Assembly: GCA_937948705.1 (NCBI GenBank)
Contig: CALECF010000126.1
Location: 1 to 27,650 of the forward strand
Source: an uncultured Anaerosolibacter sp.
GTDB taxonomy: Bacteria > Bacillota_A > Clostridia > Peptostreptococcales > Thermotaleaceae
Length of the DNA stretch: 27,650 nt
Reading direction: 5' to 3'
Both the position numbers and the translations under genes were made by a program. Below the pieces are notes generated by a model. That model ran no database searches. It saw only the letters and a list, made by a program, of their open reading frames with translations, and was not told the DNA's origin. Shown piece by piece: positions 8,800 through 26,888 of the stretch (within the stretch, counting starts at the first letter, position 1; each line of letters starts with the position of its first letter).

Positions 8800-9759
8800 A
8801 TGGATTTCATGCAGCTTATTAGTATCGTAATCCCCTTAACATTGGCCTCTGCTACACCCATTATTGCTGCTTCCTTGGGTGGACTTTTTAGTGAGAGGTC
8901 AGGTGTTGTGAATATAGGACTTGAAGGACTCATGATGGTAGGAGCTTTTGCCGCTGCCACCACCACCGTTCTTGTAGAAACTTCTATGGGACCTATGAGT
9001 CCCTGGATTGGAATAGTCATGGGCATTCTCTCCGGAGGATTATTATCTATTGTTCACGCTTATGTGAGTATAAATCTCCGTGCAGATCAGGTAATCAGTG
9101 GTACTGCCATTAATCTTCTTGCGGGAGGCATTACTATCTATCTTGCCCAGATTATTTTTAAGCAGCAAAGGACAGTGGCATTTTTATATGGTCTTAAGAA
9201 ACAAGATATACCAGTCTTGTCTAAAATTCCAGTGATAGGAAGCCTATTATTTAGTAAAATACATGCCACATCTTATTTGATTATATTGATGGTATTTATT
9301 GTTTGGTTTGTTGTTTACAAAACCCCCTTCGGATTAAGGCTAAGAGCAGTGGGGGAGCACCCAGGTGCTGCGGATTCAATGGGAATCAATGTGTATCGCA
9401 TGAGGTATATCGGTGTTATTTTGTCAGGGATGCTTGCCGGATTAGGGGGATCTATCATGGTGTTGACCCAGGATATACAATACACCTATGCAACAATTCA
9501 TGGTACAGGGTTCATCGCCTTAGCTGCCCTTATATTTGGTAAATGGCACCCAATCGGTGTATTGCTTGCAGGCCTTTTCTTTGGTTTCTCCCAAGCATTG
9601 GGGGTAGTAGCATACCAAATACCATTTTTAAACAAACTGCCCCAAGAATTTTTCTGGGCGTTTCCATATGTATTAACTATCATCGCTTTAGTTATTTTTT
9701 CTGGTAAAGCAGTTGGTCCTAAGGCTGCTGGCCAGCCTTATGAAAAAGGTGAAAGGTAA
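8800..9759 (+). CDS. ABC transporter permease 2 (BMP/NupC-type nucleoside importer)
   Basis: 319-residue BPD_transp_2 family membrane protein that forms the other half of the channel. It has the conserved N-terminal pattern TPIIAASLGGLFSERSGVVN then IGLEGLMMVGAFAAA, several hydrophobic helices, and YKTPFGLRLRAVGEHPGAAD, a cytoplasmic loop that in this family contacts the ATPase. AGGAGGGG just upstream overlaps the end of permease 1 and the gap is a single base. The gene ends the operon and its stop codon touches a terminator hairpin. It is shorter than permease 1, as usual for the second permease of these systems. Confidence 0.9.
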   Translation: MDFMQLISIVIPLTLASATPIIAASLGGLFSERSGVVNIGLEGLMMVGAFAAATTTVLVETSMGPMSPWIGIVMGILSGGLLSIVHAYVSINLRADQVISGTAINLLAGGITIYLAQIIFKQQRTVAFLYGLKKQDIPVLSKIPVIGSLLFSKIHATSYLIILMVFIVWFVVYKTPFGLRLRAVGEHPGAADSMGINVYRMRYIGVILSGMLAGLGGSIMVLTQDIQYTYATIHGTGFIALAALIFGKWHPIGVLLAGLFFGFSQALGVVAYQIPFLNKLPQEFFWAFPYVLTIIALVIFSGKAVGPKAAGQPYEKGER

Positions 9760-9790
9760 GGACAGGGTACAATACCCTGTCTTTTCCTTT
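9758..9790 (+). terminator. Terminator after the nucleoside-type transporter operon
   Basis: GACAGGGTA (9761-9769) / TACCCTGTC (9773-9781) with a 3-nt loop, extended by A-T pairs and followed by TTTTCCTTT. It overlaps the stop codon of permease 2. Confidence 0.88.
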
Positions 9791-9820
9791 GTAATAGCAG
9801 AAAACAATGATGGAACAAGC

Positions 9821-9849
9821 TTTATTTAACACCTGTTTAATGATATAAT
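9821..9849 (+). promoter_or_regulatory. Probable sigma-A promoter of rpoN
   Basis: A perfect -10 TATAAT (9844-9849) with a weak -35 TTTATT (9821-9826) at 17-bp spacing. The start of transcription would be near 9856, about 70 nt before rpoN. Confidence 0.6.
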
Positions 9850-9925
9850 AGTTTAGAAAATAAGATTAAAGATCGCGTCATAGGATAAATAAAAAAGAAC
9901 ATTTCAATATAAGGTGGGTGATGAA

Positions 9926-11302
9926 ATGAAGATAGGGTTTCATTTAAATATTGAGCAGATTCAGAAGCTGGTAATGACACCTGAATTAAAGCAAGCGATT
10001 CAAATACTACAATTTAATACCCAGGAATTATCTGAGTTTATCGATGATCAGCTTTTGACAAATCCTCTCCTTGATATTGCATCACCGCAAGAATCTGAAA
10101 TGACGAAAAACAATCCAAAGGAAGAAGTGGATTGGAAAGAGTATTTTCGAGAATACGATGATATTAGTTATAAGCAATCTAATTATAATAAGGATAAAGA
10201 AGAGGTATCCATAGAACAGTATCTGTTTCATGACACTACGCTAACAGAGCACTTGATGTTTCAGCTTCAATTTTCTATCCTAAAGAAGCGACATTATACG
10301 ATTGGCAAGTTTATCATCGAAAGCCTTGATCGGAATGGATATTTGATGACACCTCTATCTGAGATCGCAGCGCTTTTTCGTGAGTCTGAGGAGACGGTTG
10401 AAAATGTACTTGGAGTCATTCAAAGCTTTGATCCCTTCGGTATTGCCGCCCGTAACCTAAAGGAATGTTTATTGATTCAGATGAAGCAGCAGGGCATTAA
10501 GAATGAAAAAATATTTGAAGTGGTATCCCATCATCTAGATGATGTGGCAAATAATCGACTTGCTGTTATAGCAAAGGATTTAAATATTACAACCATCGAG
10601 GTTCAAGAGATTGCAGATTTTATCAAGACATTAGATCCAAAGCCTGGCAGTATATTTAGTGCCAGTAATGATGTGAAATATATTACACCGGATGTAACTG
10701 TCGAGAAAATTGATGGAGAATATGTGGTGATGGTGAATGATACTTCGGCCCCTAGACTTCTGATCAACCAGTTTTACCGAAGTATGCTCATGAATGAAGA
10801 AAAAGATTCATCTACGTCTAAATTCATTACTGACAAACTAAACTCAGCTATGTGGCTTGTCAAAAGCATAGAACAAAGAAGGCAAACCATTTATAAGGTA
10901 GTAAAGGCCATTGTCAACTATCAAATTGATTTTTTTGAAGGTGGCAAAAAGTGTCTAAGGCCGTTGACTTTAAAGCTGATTGCTGACGAGGTGGGTGTTC
11001 ACGAATCAACAGTGAGCCGTGCAGTAAACGGAAAGTATATGCAAAGTCCAAGGGGAGTATTCGAGCTTAAATTCTTTTTTAGTAGTGGGGTTTCTAATCA
11101 CGAGGGTGATGGTTTAGCGTCAGAGAGCATTAAAAGCATGATTCAAGATATGATCGATAAGGAAAATCCGAAAAAGCCTTTGAGTGATCAGTTGATTGCA
11201 GATCTGTTGCAGAACCAAGGGATCAATATTTCTAGGCGAACAGTTGCAAAGTACCGGGATGAAATGAATATACAAGCTTCATCAAAAAGAAAACGTTTTT
11301 AA
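9926..11302 (+). CDS. rpoN: RNA polymerase sigma-54 factor
   Basis: Sigma-54, which directs RNA polymerase to -24/-12 promoters and needs ATP-dependent activators. I choose ATG 9926 (458 residues) because AGGTGGG (9912-9918) lies at proper distance; the in-frame GTG at 9914 falls inside that site. Region I at the N-terminus (LNIEQIQKLVMTPELKQAIQ, then ILQFNTQELSEFIDDQLLTN) is the activator-responsive part. An acidic linker at about 55-90 is followed by the core-binding domain, a helix-turn-helix (LIADEVGVHESTVSRAVNGK, near 355-375) and the RpoN box SRRTVAKYRD (436-445) that contacts the -24 element. The gene has its own promoter and terminator, so it is probably a single unit next to the glycolytic operon. 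No sigma-54 activator gene is in the window. Confidence 0.95.
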   Translation: MKIGFHLNIEQIQKLVMTPELKQAIQILQFNTQELSEFIDDQLLTNPLLDIASPQESEMTKNNPKEEVDWKEYFREYDDISYKQSNYNKDKEEVSIEQYLFHDTTLTEHLMFQLQFSILKKRHYTIGKFIIESLDRNGYLMTPLSEIAALFRESEETVENVLGVIQSFDPFGIAARNLKECLLIQMKQQGIKNEKIFEVVSHHLDDVANNRLAVIAKDLNITTIEVQEIADFIKTLDPKPGSIFSASNDVKYITPDVTVEKIDGEYVVMVNDTSAPRLLINQFYRSMLMNEEKDSSTSKFITDKLNSAMWLVKSIEQRRQTIYKVVKAIVNYQIDFFEGGKKCLRPLTLKLIADEVGVHESTVSRAVNGKYMQSPRGVFELKFFFSSGVSNHEGDGLASESIKSMIQDMIDKENPKKPLSDQLIADLLQNQGINISRRTVAKYRDEMNIQASSKRKRF

Positions 11303-24033: not shown

Positions 24034-24079
24034 ACTTACTAGACCTTAAATGAGATTACCTTTTGGAGTGGGTGTTTGT

Positions 24080-24547
24080 ATGGGAGAAGGAAAATCAATA
24101 GCTAATAATAAAAAAGCATATCATGATTATTTTATTGAGGAAACCTACGAAGCAGGGATTGTTTTAACAGGTACTGAGGTTAAATCCATCCGCTTAGGTA
24201 GAATCAATTTAAAGGATAGCTATGCAGAAGTAGACCATAGAGAGCTTTATATCTATAATATGCATATCAGCCCTTATGAGCAAGGCAACATATTCAATGT
24301 TGATCCTGTGAGGAAGAGAAAATTACTGATGCATAGGAAAGAAATAGCAAAACTCTTAGGCTATACTACCCAGCAGGGGCACACCTTAGTACCGACAAAG
24401 GTATACATCAATAGCAGGGGTCTTGTAAAGTTACAGTTGGCTGTTGCCAAAGGAAAGAAGCTTTATGATAAGCGAGATGACATCGCGAAAAAAGAAGCAA
24501 ACCGACGTATTCAGCAGGAGTTAAAAGAAAGACAAAAATCCTATTAA
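24080..24547 (+). CDS. smpB: SsrA-binding protein SmpB
   Basis: Binds the tRNA-like part of tmRNA and brings it to stalled ribosomes. ATG 24080 gives 155 residues, the family length, with a GGAGTGGG site just upstream; the frame is open 30 nt earlier but that part lies in the leader. The family motifs [51 protein letters not shown] and [12 protein letters not shown] are present. The lysine/arginine-rich C-terminal tail ([20 protein letters not shown]...) is the part that enters the mRNA channel and the A site. ssrA begins 79 nt downstream with no terminator between, so both may be transcribed from the promoter at 24005. Confidence 0.97.
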
Positions 24548-24725
24548 AATAATGATTTCAACTGATTGAAAGCATTCTTCTACTGTGATTGCAAGGCAGG
24601 TTTATCTGCTTTGACATATATATCATGGGGGCGTACAGGCTTCGACGGGGGTGTGGAGTCAGGAGTAGCGAGTGGAGGTTTTTCCTTGGGGTCCGCCTTA
24701 AAAAACTGGGGAAATAAAGATAAAC

Positions 24726-24755
24726 GCAAACAATAATTACGCTTTAGCAGCTTAA
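24726..24755 (+). other. tmRNA tag-peptide reading frame (ANNNYALAA)
   Basis: Resume codon GCA at 24726 followed by AAC AAT AAT TAC GCT TTA GCA GCT and TAA at 24753-24755, with an additional TAG in frame (24756-24758). With the tRNA-borne alanine the tag is A-ANNNYALAA. The ALAA end is the usual ClpXP-type degradation signal. Confidence 0.9.
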
Positions 24756-24966
24756 TAGCTGCTCGTTCTGCCTAGACTGCCTACGGTTTAGGGTCAGGGC
24801 GTCGACTAGTAGGGAACTACCGAGGGGTTGTCTCGACCCAAAGGTGGAACAATTGGGACTGGTTGATCGCAAAGCCTGTCATTGGGCGCTGCAGGATACG
24901 AGAAACTAAAACAATGACTGCACTCGGAGAAGCTGTTGGCAAAGGACTTTCGGACAGGGGTTCGAT

Positions 24967-25249
24967 TCAAAAAGAGTCGCCTTGTGGCGTGAGCTACAAG
25001 TGAAAATCTGGCTTGATCGGTGAAACCGTAACGTAAAGACGACGGCAATGCCGAGGGGTATGTGGAGTAATCCAACAGCTCTGTATCGACTTATAGGCAT
25101 CCTACAGGGATGTACTAGGATGGAAGTCAAAGACCATATTACGACTTTCATAATACGCCAGAGAAGTTAAGCAACAGGGTTACAGACGAAGAATCGTCTC
25201 CTTAACTTCAAGATATAGTCAGCACCATTGGAAACAATGGAATGATGTG
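24967..25249 (+). other. Group I intron in the tmRNA T-loop
   Basis: 283-nt insertion inside the T-loop. P1: CGATTC (24963-24968) pairs with GAGTCG (24974-24979), loop AAAAA, with the last exon base U24966 opposite G24976, the wobble that marks group I 5' splice sites. The insertion ends in G (25249), as group I introns do. P3: TCTGGC (25007-25012) / GCCAGA (25157-25162). P8: GAAGTTAAG (25163-25171) / CTTAACTTC (25201-25209), directly after P3. J8/7 and P7 3' strand: AAGATATAGTC (25210-25220), the classical S element. P7 5' strand is tentatively GACT (25143-25146). P9: CCATTG-GAAA-CAATGG (from about 25226) with a GNRA loop. There is no ORF, so no homing endonuclease. The S element resembles that of phage T4 td (group IA), but the subgroup is not certain. 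It should self-splice with a guanosine cofactor. Confidence 0.93.
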
Positions 25250-25273
25250 TCCCCTCGCCTCCACCAATCAAGA

Positions 25274-25320
25274 GAAAAGGAATGGGTAGTTCAAACTACT
25301 CATTCCTTTTCCATTTTTAT
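25274..25320 (+). terminator. Terminator after ssrA
   Basis: 17-bp stem (one G.T) 25274-25290 / 25295-25311, core GGAATGGGTAGT/ACTACTCATTCC, loop TCAA, followed by CATTTTTAT. It starts 7 nt after the tmRNA 3' end. Confidence 0.93.
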
Positions 25321-25598: not shown

Positions 25599-26888
25599 AT
25601 GTCAAAATACTTAACCTTTGACCAACGTCTTGATATTGAGATTGGTCTAAAAGAGCACCTTTCCTTTGGTATGATTGCACAAAAGCTTGGTAAGGATCGA
25701 ACAACGATTTCTAAGGAAATTAAGCGTAATCATATTATTAAGAAGACCGGATATGCCGGATGGTCATATAATGCCTGCAGGCATCGACTTTCCTGTAATC
25801 AATCAGGGATATGTGATGTGTGCAAATATAAAGCAAAATCATACTGTAAGCTTTGCAAACTTTGCAATGAAGAATGTAATCATTTTGAGGAAGAAGTATG
25901 TATTAGCAAGTTTAAGCCACCTTATGTTTGCAATGGATGTGATCAGATTGATAAATGTACCTTGGCGAAGCCATTTTATAGTGCCGTTGATGCTCATAAT
26001 GTTTTTTCTGAAAAATTATCAGAGGCTCGAAGTGGAATCATTACCAATGAATTAGAAATATCAAGAATCAACACCTTGATTACTCCTTTGATTCGAAAGG
26101 GCCAGTCAATTCATCAGATATATGTGAATCATGTAGATGTTCTTATGTGTAGTGAAAAAACTCTCTACAACTATGTGGATGCGTGTTTGTTTGATGTCAG
26201 AAACATTGATTTACCACGTAAAGTCAAATATCGCCCTCGTTACAAGAAACCAGAGTTTAAAGTAGATAGAAGTTGTCGTATAGGTCGTAATTACAAAGAC
26301 TTCTGCGAGTTCATTGAAAAGAATCCTGATTATGGTGTAGTACAAATGGACTCCGTCATTGGAACCCAAGGAGGTAAGGTGCTCTTGACAATACACTTCG
26401 TAAATTGCAGTTTCATGATGGCATTCTTGAGAAAAGCCAACACATCTCAATCTGTCATTGATGTGTTTGATGAACTCCAGAGGACTCTTGGAAGGGTAGC
26501 TTATAGTAAACTATTTCCTGTTATTCTAACGGATAATGGAAGTGAATTTTCAAATCCTAAAGCCATTGAACTTGGGACAGATGAAATACGAAAAAGTCAT
26601 GTATTTTATTGTGATCCAAGCTCTCCCCACCAAAAAGGTGCCATCGAAGTCAACCACTCATTGATTAGAAGAATTCTGCCAAAAGGTAAGTCCTTTGATG
26701 ACTTGACGCAGGAAGATATCCTTTTGGTAATGAACCATGTGAACTCTTACAAACGTAAAAAGCTGAACGACAAGAGTCCCTACGACGCGTTCAGCTTTTA
26801 CTACGGAGAAGATATCTTGGGCAAGTTGGGTTATGCCTCAGTTGCAGCTGAAGATATTAACTTAACACCAAAACTTCTCAAAAGATAA
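25599..26888 (+). CDS. IS30-family transposase
   Basis: 429-residue DDE transposase. The N-terminal helix-turn-helix (LTFDQRLDIEIGLKEHLSFG, then MIAQKLGKDRTTISKEIKRN) is the IS30-type domain. A cysteine-rich insert follows at about 58-130 (CNQSGICDVCKYKAKSYC, CKLCNEEC, CNGCDQIDKC), likely metal-binding. The rve-like catalytic domain has Asp251 (VVQMDSVIG), Asp312 (LTDNGSEFSNP) and Glu350 (PHQKGAIEVNH), followed by LPKGKSFDDLTQED and the end segment KSPYDAF, all typical of the family. AAAGGGGGATTACC precedes ATG 25599. The frame is full length without stops, so the enzyme may be active. No partner gene is needed. Its position just after ssrA is not site-specific for this family as far as I know. 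Confidence 0.95.
   Translation: MSKYLTFDQRLDIEIGLKEHLSFGMIAQKLGKDRTTISKEIKRNHIIKKTGYAGWSYNACRHRLSCNQSGICDVCKYKAKSYCKLCKLCNEECNHFEEEVCISKFKPPYVCNGCDQIDKCTLAKPFYSAVDAHNVFSEKLSEARSGIITNELEISRINTLITPLIRKGQSIHQIYVNHVDVLMCSEKTLYNYVDACLFDVRNIDLPRKVKYRPRYKKPEFKVDRSCRIGRNYKDFCEFIEKNPDYGVVQMDSVIGTQGGKVLLTIHFVNCSFMMAFLRKANTSQSVIDVFDELQRTLGRVAYSKLFPVILTDNGSEFSNPKAIELGTDEIRKSHVFYCDPSSPHQKGAIEVNHSLIRRILPKGKSFDDLTQEDILLVMNHVNSYKRKKLNDKSPYDAFSFYYGEDILGKLGYASVAAEDINLTPKLLKR

Follow-up and report, generated by a model that had tools for sequence, protein, structure and literature searches.

The smpB-ssrA locus

The stretch of DNA that was analysed (the window) comprises 27,650 nucleotides from an uncultured Anaerosolibacter sp. 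and contains, directly after smpB, an ssrA gene at 24627-25266 on the + strand, which is interrupted within the T-arm of the encoded tmRNA. The features of the locus are as follows.

24050-24547, + strand: smpB, encoding the tmRNA partner protein (Pfam PF01668, E 1.4e-61)
24627-24966, + strand: ssrA 5' exon, with the acceptor 5' strand, the tag frame and the T-arm 5' half (RF00023; ARAGORN on the joined exons)
24726-24755, + strand: tag reading frame, ANNNYALAA plus stop (ARAGORN, positions 100-129 of the joined exons)
24967-25249, + strand: group I intron, 283 nt (RF00028 match; structure test on 25 introns)
25250-25266, + strand: ssrA 3' exon, with the T-arm 3' half, the acceptor 3' strand and an encoded CCA (acceptor pairing)

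The 5' strand of the acceptor stem, GGGGGCG from 24627, finds its partner in CGCCTCC, which ends at 25262 and is followed by ACCA (as read by eye); all seven acceptor pairs form, the third being a G.U. The T-arm is broken off after U24966 and continues at U25250, i.e. the site is UUCGAU^U, between bases 6 and 7 of the T-loop. An earlier note on this DNA, made from the sequence alone, had placed the break (24966/24967), the resumption (25250) and the 283-nt insert exactly to the base. We infer that the site is position 7 in the numbering of PMC11915505 (as far as the available part of that survey gives it), since a U precedes only positions 2, 3, 7 and 8 of the window's loop.

The interruption has consequences for gene finding. 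The Rfam tmRNA model RF00023 matches 24635-24969 with 127.1 bits, the match covering neither strand of the acceptor stem nor the T-arm's 3' half, and ARAGORN finds no tmRNA either on the whole window or on the unjoined ssrA sequence. Upon joining of the exons (24627-24966 and 25250-25266, together 357 nt), ARAGORN calls a full tmRNA with the tag ANNNYALAA; the tRNA-like ends, the tag frame and the T-arm are all restored by the joining, which bears out the earlier expectation that excision would restore the T-arm. A second, permuted tmRNA that ARAGORN reports on the joined exons is put down to the circular way in which the program searches. The window's ssrA is therefore an exact, tool-checked case of a gene that common finders either miss (ARAGORN) or shorten (Rfam).

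About 330 bases downstream of ssrA lies a gene with an HTH_38 domain (25599-26888), which we take to encode an IS30-type transposase. At the other end of the window, the grdB frame ends at a TGA (1419-1421) that is probably read as selenocysteine, because a SECIS_4 element directly adjoins it (feature 1419-1459, 64.8 bits) and Pfam places the protein in the selenoprotein B family.

The group I intron and its structure

In a 361-base search, the Rfam group I model RF00028 scores 47.5 bits (E 3.3e-11) at 24957-25241. As its gathering score is 50, the match does not appear in the scan of the whole window. The check with Rfam models that had been proposed for this locus thus came out clearly for the tmRNA and below the cut-off for the intron. 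No ssrA intron reached the RF00028 cut-off in three gathering scans of relatives' loci, and a further scan reported two of four ssrA-intron carriers (37.3 and 40.6 bits) while missing those of G001 and G006; RF00028 is a poor fit for ssrA introns as a group. The fold energy of 24940-25275 has a z-score of -3.83, and the intron consists of the following elements (cells being single pairs in single introns of the alignment described below).

24963-24979, + strand: P1, exon CGAU (24963-24966) with guide GUCG (24976-24979); 100 of 100 cells paired, invariant
24981-25000, + strand: P2 hairpin, 8 bp; 200 of 200 cells paired, two-sided changes in 6 of 8 pairs
25007-25012, + strand: P3 5' strand, partner 25157-25162; 150 of 150 cells paired, two-sided changes in 3 of 6 pairs
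25017-25054, + strand: P4 and P5; 150 of 150 and 90 of 100 cells paired
25055-25082, + strand: P6 and P6a; 125 of 125 and 99 of 100 cells paired
25088-25094, + strand: P7 5' strand GACUUAU, partner AUAGUC (25215-25220); always paired and the same in all 25 introns
25098-25149, + strand: peripheral hairpins P7.1 (95.2% of cells paired) and P7.2 (96.6%)
25157-25162, + strand: P3 3' strand; same pairing evidence as the 5' strand
25163-25209, + strand: P8, with an extra loop hairpin in the window's copy; 98.4% of cells paired, hairpin by fold
25210-25220, + strand: AAGATATAGTC, containing the P7 3' strand (sequence; 25-intron alignment)
25225-25240, + strand: P9 hairpin with GAAA loop, 25225-25230 with 25235-25240; 92% of cells paired

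As had been pointed out before, the wobble pair U24966.G24976 of P1 sits at the 5' splice site, the last base of the intron is a G (G25249), and the element AAGATATAGTC is present. The P7 partner of this element, which the earlier note had left unnamed, is GACUUAU at 25088-25094. Rfam had set AGACCA against AGACUA of the model, but AGACCA was rejected as the P7 strand, since it cannot be aligned from one intron to the next; GACUUAU (with one U bulged), by contrast, pairs in all 25. P7.1 and P7.2 follow the P7 5' strand and precede the P3 3' strand, an arrangement that we take to be a mark of group I subclass IA. Of the two pairs of P10, the outer one fails in 8 of 25 introns. No homing endonuclease gene was seen in the window's intron, in which the longest stop-free stretch in six frames is 66 codons; two antisense ORFs (81 and 89 codons) overlap it partly.

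The structure was compared across 25 introns, i.e. that of the window and those of 24 loci. From the 29 listed matches, two phage introns (L087 and L088), a locus whose 3' end was missed by the pattern (L089), one without an intron (L093) and one representing the same place as L001 (L098) were left out. Over the 70 pairs of P1, P2, P3, P4, P5, P6, P6a, P7, P7.1, P7.2, P8 and P9, standard pairs occupy 97.8% of 1714 cells, and 39 of the 70 pairs show two-sided changes. None of 500 shuffles was as good as the observed alignment on any of five measures (a test that favours the structure, because the rows are related), and structures slid along the alignment were only 33.8-40.9% paired (a control that favours it as well, because it was drawn on the window). 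The two-sided changes in P2, P3, P7.2 and P8 are stronger support than either control. P1 and P7 never vary, so that no covariation information comes from either, and the weakest helices are P5 (90% paired) and P9 (92%). The group I core from P3 to P9, with its P3/P7 pseudoknot, is thus backed by comparison, P3 covarying and P7 being neutral by itself. A U before the site and a G at the intron end occur in 25 of 25 aligned introns, both having been required by the search and cutting patterns. The Rfam matches and this test together support the claim of a group I intron in the T-loop, including the P3, P8 and P9 helices that had been proposed for it.

No point was found that would support a chance fold or an assembly artefact, and both were rejected: two loci from other assemblies, L001 and L097, have the insert at the identical base (their aligned introns match the window's with 90.5% and 88.9% identity), and its helices covary, which makes such an origin negligibly probable. 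It is instead nearly certain (with a probability of about 0.96) that the locus is a tmRNA gene of an Anaerosolibacter-like clostridium with a compact group I intron that lacks an endonuclease gene and is removed by splicing.

Distribution among relatives

Of 520 confirmed places in a search with smpB the best 80 were kept, the closest among them being an Anaerosolibacter MAG (87% identical to the window's smpB) and Candidatus Petromonas (76%). The T-arm pattern was readable in 38 of these 80 places, with the insert in 12 and no insert in 26, and some of the other 42 have a full tmRNA by Rfam. The carriers include eight Bacillaceae and Caldicoprobacter oshimai, while the site of C. algeriensis is empty. 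Close relatives of carriers can thus have an empty site (other handles for such pairs are L022 beside L016 and L104 beside L096), so that the proposed comparison with intron-less ssrA genes could be made. In a second set, consisting of 198 genomes picked as relatives of the Anaerosolibacter genome, the 5' junction motif occurs in 13 genomes at 15 places, one of which (L093) was rejected as an ssrA intron because, apart from the fit to the junction pattern, neither a tmRNA nor an intron was matched there; the reversed junction pattern gave no match in the 198 genomes. The intron-free T-arm pattern occurs in 104 of them, with G037 in both lists and 82 genomes in neither. Some of the compared genomes are metagenome assemblies, in which wrong binning is possible. 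A search of plasmids and E. coli genomes with the window's intron gave no match.

On a tree of 66 tmRNA 5' exons (23 with the insert, 43 without) at least 12 gains or losses of the insert are needed (10-13 over bootstrap trees), of which 7 are forced by well-supported branches. Shuffled labels require a mean of 19.4 changes, with 1 of 500 shuffles as low as observed, i.e. the insert is more clustered than expected from shuffling and is therefore also inherited. The two rows nearest to the window, L097 and L001, both carry it. In the intron tree only 4 of 22 inner branches are well supported, and for that reason no specific transfer is claimed; a hint of transfer or recombination comes from L102, which joins L094 in the exon tree but the L100 group in the intron tree.

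Some introns (L001, L090, L100, L102 and L103, and in a shorter form L091) contain in their P7.2 region a hairpin module of about 53 nt that is absent from near relatives of its carriers, including the window. Group I introns were also encountered outside the smpB-ssrA loci of relatives (L081, L083 and L084, with group II matches in L083 as well); L082, likewise away from smpB-ssrA, scored 77.5 bits in one group I scan and went unreported in another Rfam scan.

The base before the site differs between carriers and non-carriers. In the smpB set, for which this base was left free in the pattern, it is U in 12 of 12 carriers versus 10 of 26 non-carriers, the others having C (14) or A (2) (Fisher p 0.0003, with kinship ignored). 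Among the 198 relatives, U precedes 56 of 106 intron-free sites (C 48, A 2) and, with a carrier pattern that demanded U, the site in 13 of 13 carriers (Fisher p 0.0006). A pattern for bases other than U gave 19 places in 16 of the 198 genomes, compared with 15 places when the pattern was reversed; inspected by eye, 13 of these 19 resemble tRNA ends and none resembles the start of an ssrA intron.

Islands, phages and the mobility of the intron

Several genomes contain more than one tmRNA part. In G078, an intron-form tmRNA (L124, at 58-387) is followed, after some 18 kb of genes, by a second copy about 18.2 kb downstream (L103), which by eye runs from the tag onward and also bears an intron, and which was not reported by Rfam; the arrangement looks as if an island had integrated. 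In G048 (L090) an intron-free tmRNA gene stands beside smpB, with an intron-bearing tmRNA 3' end 242 nt further on, which is possibly a trace of intron loss. G037 (L111, L125) has an intron-free gene beside smpB and an intron-bearing 3' part at the cut end of another contig, the 3' exon of which seems changed at its first base; this may represent a whole second tmRNA gene or wrong binning.

These intron-bearing 3' parts away from the main gene (in G048, G078 and perhaps G037) would fit the reading that splicing has been lost and the window's ssrA is a pseudogene, perhaps displaced by an island with a working copy. Given the full 5' end beside smpB, the intact tag, the seven acceptor pairs and the presence of every helix of the intron model, we consider this very improbable compared with a functional gene whose intron is spliced out.

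Each of three IMG/VR contigs, L087, L088 and L133 (166, 26 and 64 kb), has a candidate tmRNA gene whose T-loop is interrupted at the same site as in the window, by 653 nt in the case of L087 and L088. The candidate gene of L087 (about 9338-10425, - strand) scores 35.1 bits against RF00023 (E 3.5e-12, under the cut-off), has a tag frame that looks long (~31 codons by eye), and gave no group I model match at E up to 1. Its insert contains an antisense ORF resembling phage endonucleases (phrog_5046, E 1.6e-19; LAGLIDADG_1, E 0.0005, under the Pfam cut-off), which matched three records of the phage collection at 36-37% identity; a search of the same collection with the DNA of the tmRNA region found nothing. 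A looser pattern yielded 25 viral contigs; judged by eye, 3 of them have what looks like a tmRNA intron, unlike the other 22. The window's intron itself gave one 39-base match in the phage collection, in Vibrio phage 424E50-1, which was rejected as an ssrA intron: it has the look of another group I intron, since a GIY-YIG gene and a terminase fragment adjoin it.

It is conceivable, if doubtful, that the ssrA intron owes its movement and removal more to integrating islands and phages than to homing endonucleases. Elements recombining into ssrA would then swap its 3' part for an intron-bearing or intron-free one (as in G048, G078 and perhaps G037), and large phages would have their own intron-form tmRNA genes (L087, L088, L133). 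If true, such movement would account for the patchy distribution of an intron mostly without an endonuclease.

Splicing and tmRNA function

The exons, the intron and its fold are established by the sequence and its comparison; that splicing proceeds in two steps and takes place in the cell would follow from what is typical of the intron family, and by this analogy the window's intron very probably cuts itself out. Transcription would run through the intron to give a precursor, in which the intron would fold into P1-P9. A guanosine cofactor would attack after U24966 (i.e. at the U.G pair in P1), the freed 5' exon would then attack after G25249, and the joined exons would form a normal 357-nt tmRNA with the tag ANNNYALAA.

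The earlier note had held that the unspliced RNA lacks a proper acceptor stem and T-arm and could not be aminoacylated. Pairing probabilities (ViennaRNA, computed without pseudoknots and hence rough) agree with this for the T-arm, where the T-loop is interrupted and the T-stem pairs fall from 0.29-0.34 in the spliced RNA to 0.04-0.14 in the precursor, but not for the acceptor stem, which is contained in the minimum-energy fold of the precursor with pair probabilities of 0.76-0.81, compared to 0.80-0.87 in the spliced RNA. Since the acceptor stem is predicted to form, loss of charging does not follow. The four P1 pairs have probabilities of 0.48-0.77 in the precursor. As the T-loop is broken in the precursor, it is still likely that tmRNA function depends on splicing, removal of the intron being needed for a normal T-loop and thereby for normal function.

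The acceptor stem of the precursor (0.76-0.81) does fit the idea of a regulated switch, in which a chargeable or bindable precursor persists and the intron times the appearance of mature tmRNA. Yet no Rfam regulatory RNA family matched at the ssrA locus, and the patchy presence of the intron (at least 12 gains or losses on the exon tree) implies that hosts manage without it, which renders a switch unlikely. Rather than a regulator, the spliced intron is probably neutral baggage.

Comparison with known systems

The comparison draws on the available parts of the publications cited. Intron-form tmRNA, the first report of which is credited to Williams 2002, has been surveyed in 2025 (PMC11915505): 883 unique sequences, all with the intron in the T-loop and most at position 7, were found in 21 phyla, mainly Bacillota, which contradicts the view in the earlier note that the type is limited to a few clostridia. 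An endonuclease gene occurs in 36 of the 883, and the mean intron length is 293 bp in the survey's 843 founding sequences (PMC11915505). For the C. botulinum tmRNA intron, also named in PMC1995217, PMC2729099 cites an earlier demonstration of self-splicing and uses CGAU as the oligonucleotide for this intron in a folding assay. The tmRNA website lists introns when present (PMC4383926). Because of the survey (PMC11915505) and the C. botulinum case (PMC2729099, PMC1995217), the window's ssrA intron belongs to a type that is already known from many bacteria. No report joining Anaerosolibacter and tmRNA was met in the accessible literature; the species may figure in the supplementary list of PMC11915505.

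The C. botulinum gene resembles that of the window in its 5' exon (338 versus 340 nt), its intron (287 versus 283 nt) and the exon end CGAU, to which features the comparison is confined; the difference is that the C. botulinum intron is cited as self-splicing (PMC2729099), whereas that of the window is predicted to be so. The intron of the Anaerosolibacter MAG (L001) occupies the same site and is 90.5% identical over 253 aligned columns, but differs from the window's by a short P8 loop and by the further ~53-nt hairpin in its P7.2 region. Relatives that are close to each other but differ in the presence of the intron provide a good setting for studying the spread and loss of an endonuclease-free group I intron. 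With the surveyed intron-form tmRNA genes, as far as the available part of PMC11915505 describes them, the window shares the T-loop location, the main subsite, the U at -1, the terminal G and the predominant phylum, Bacillota; there is no difference of kind, and the window adds another species, whose P8 loop has an extra hairpin.
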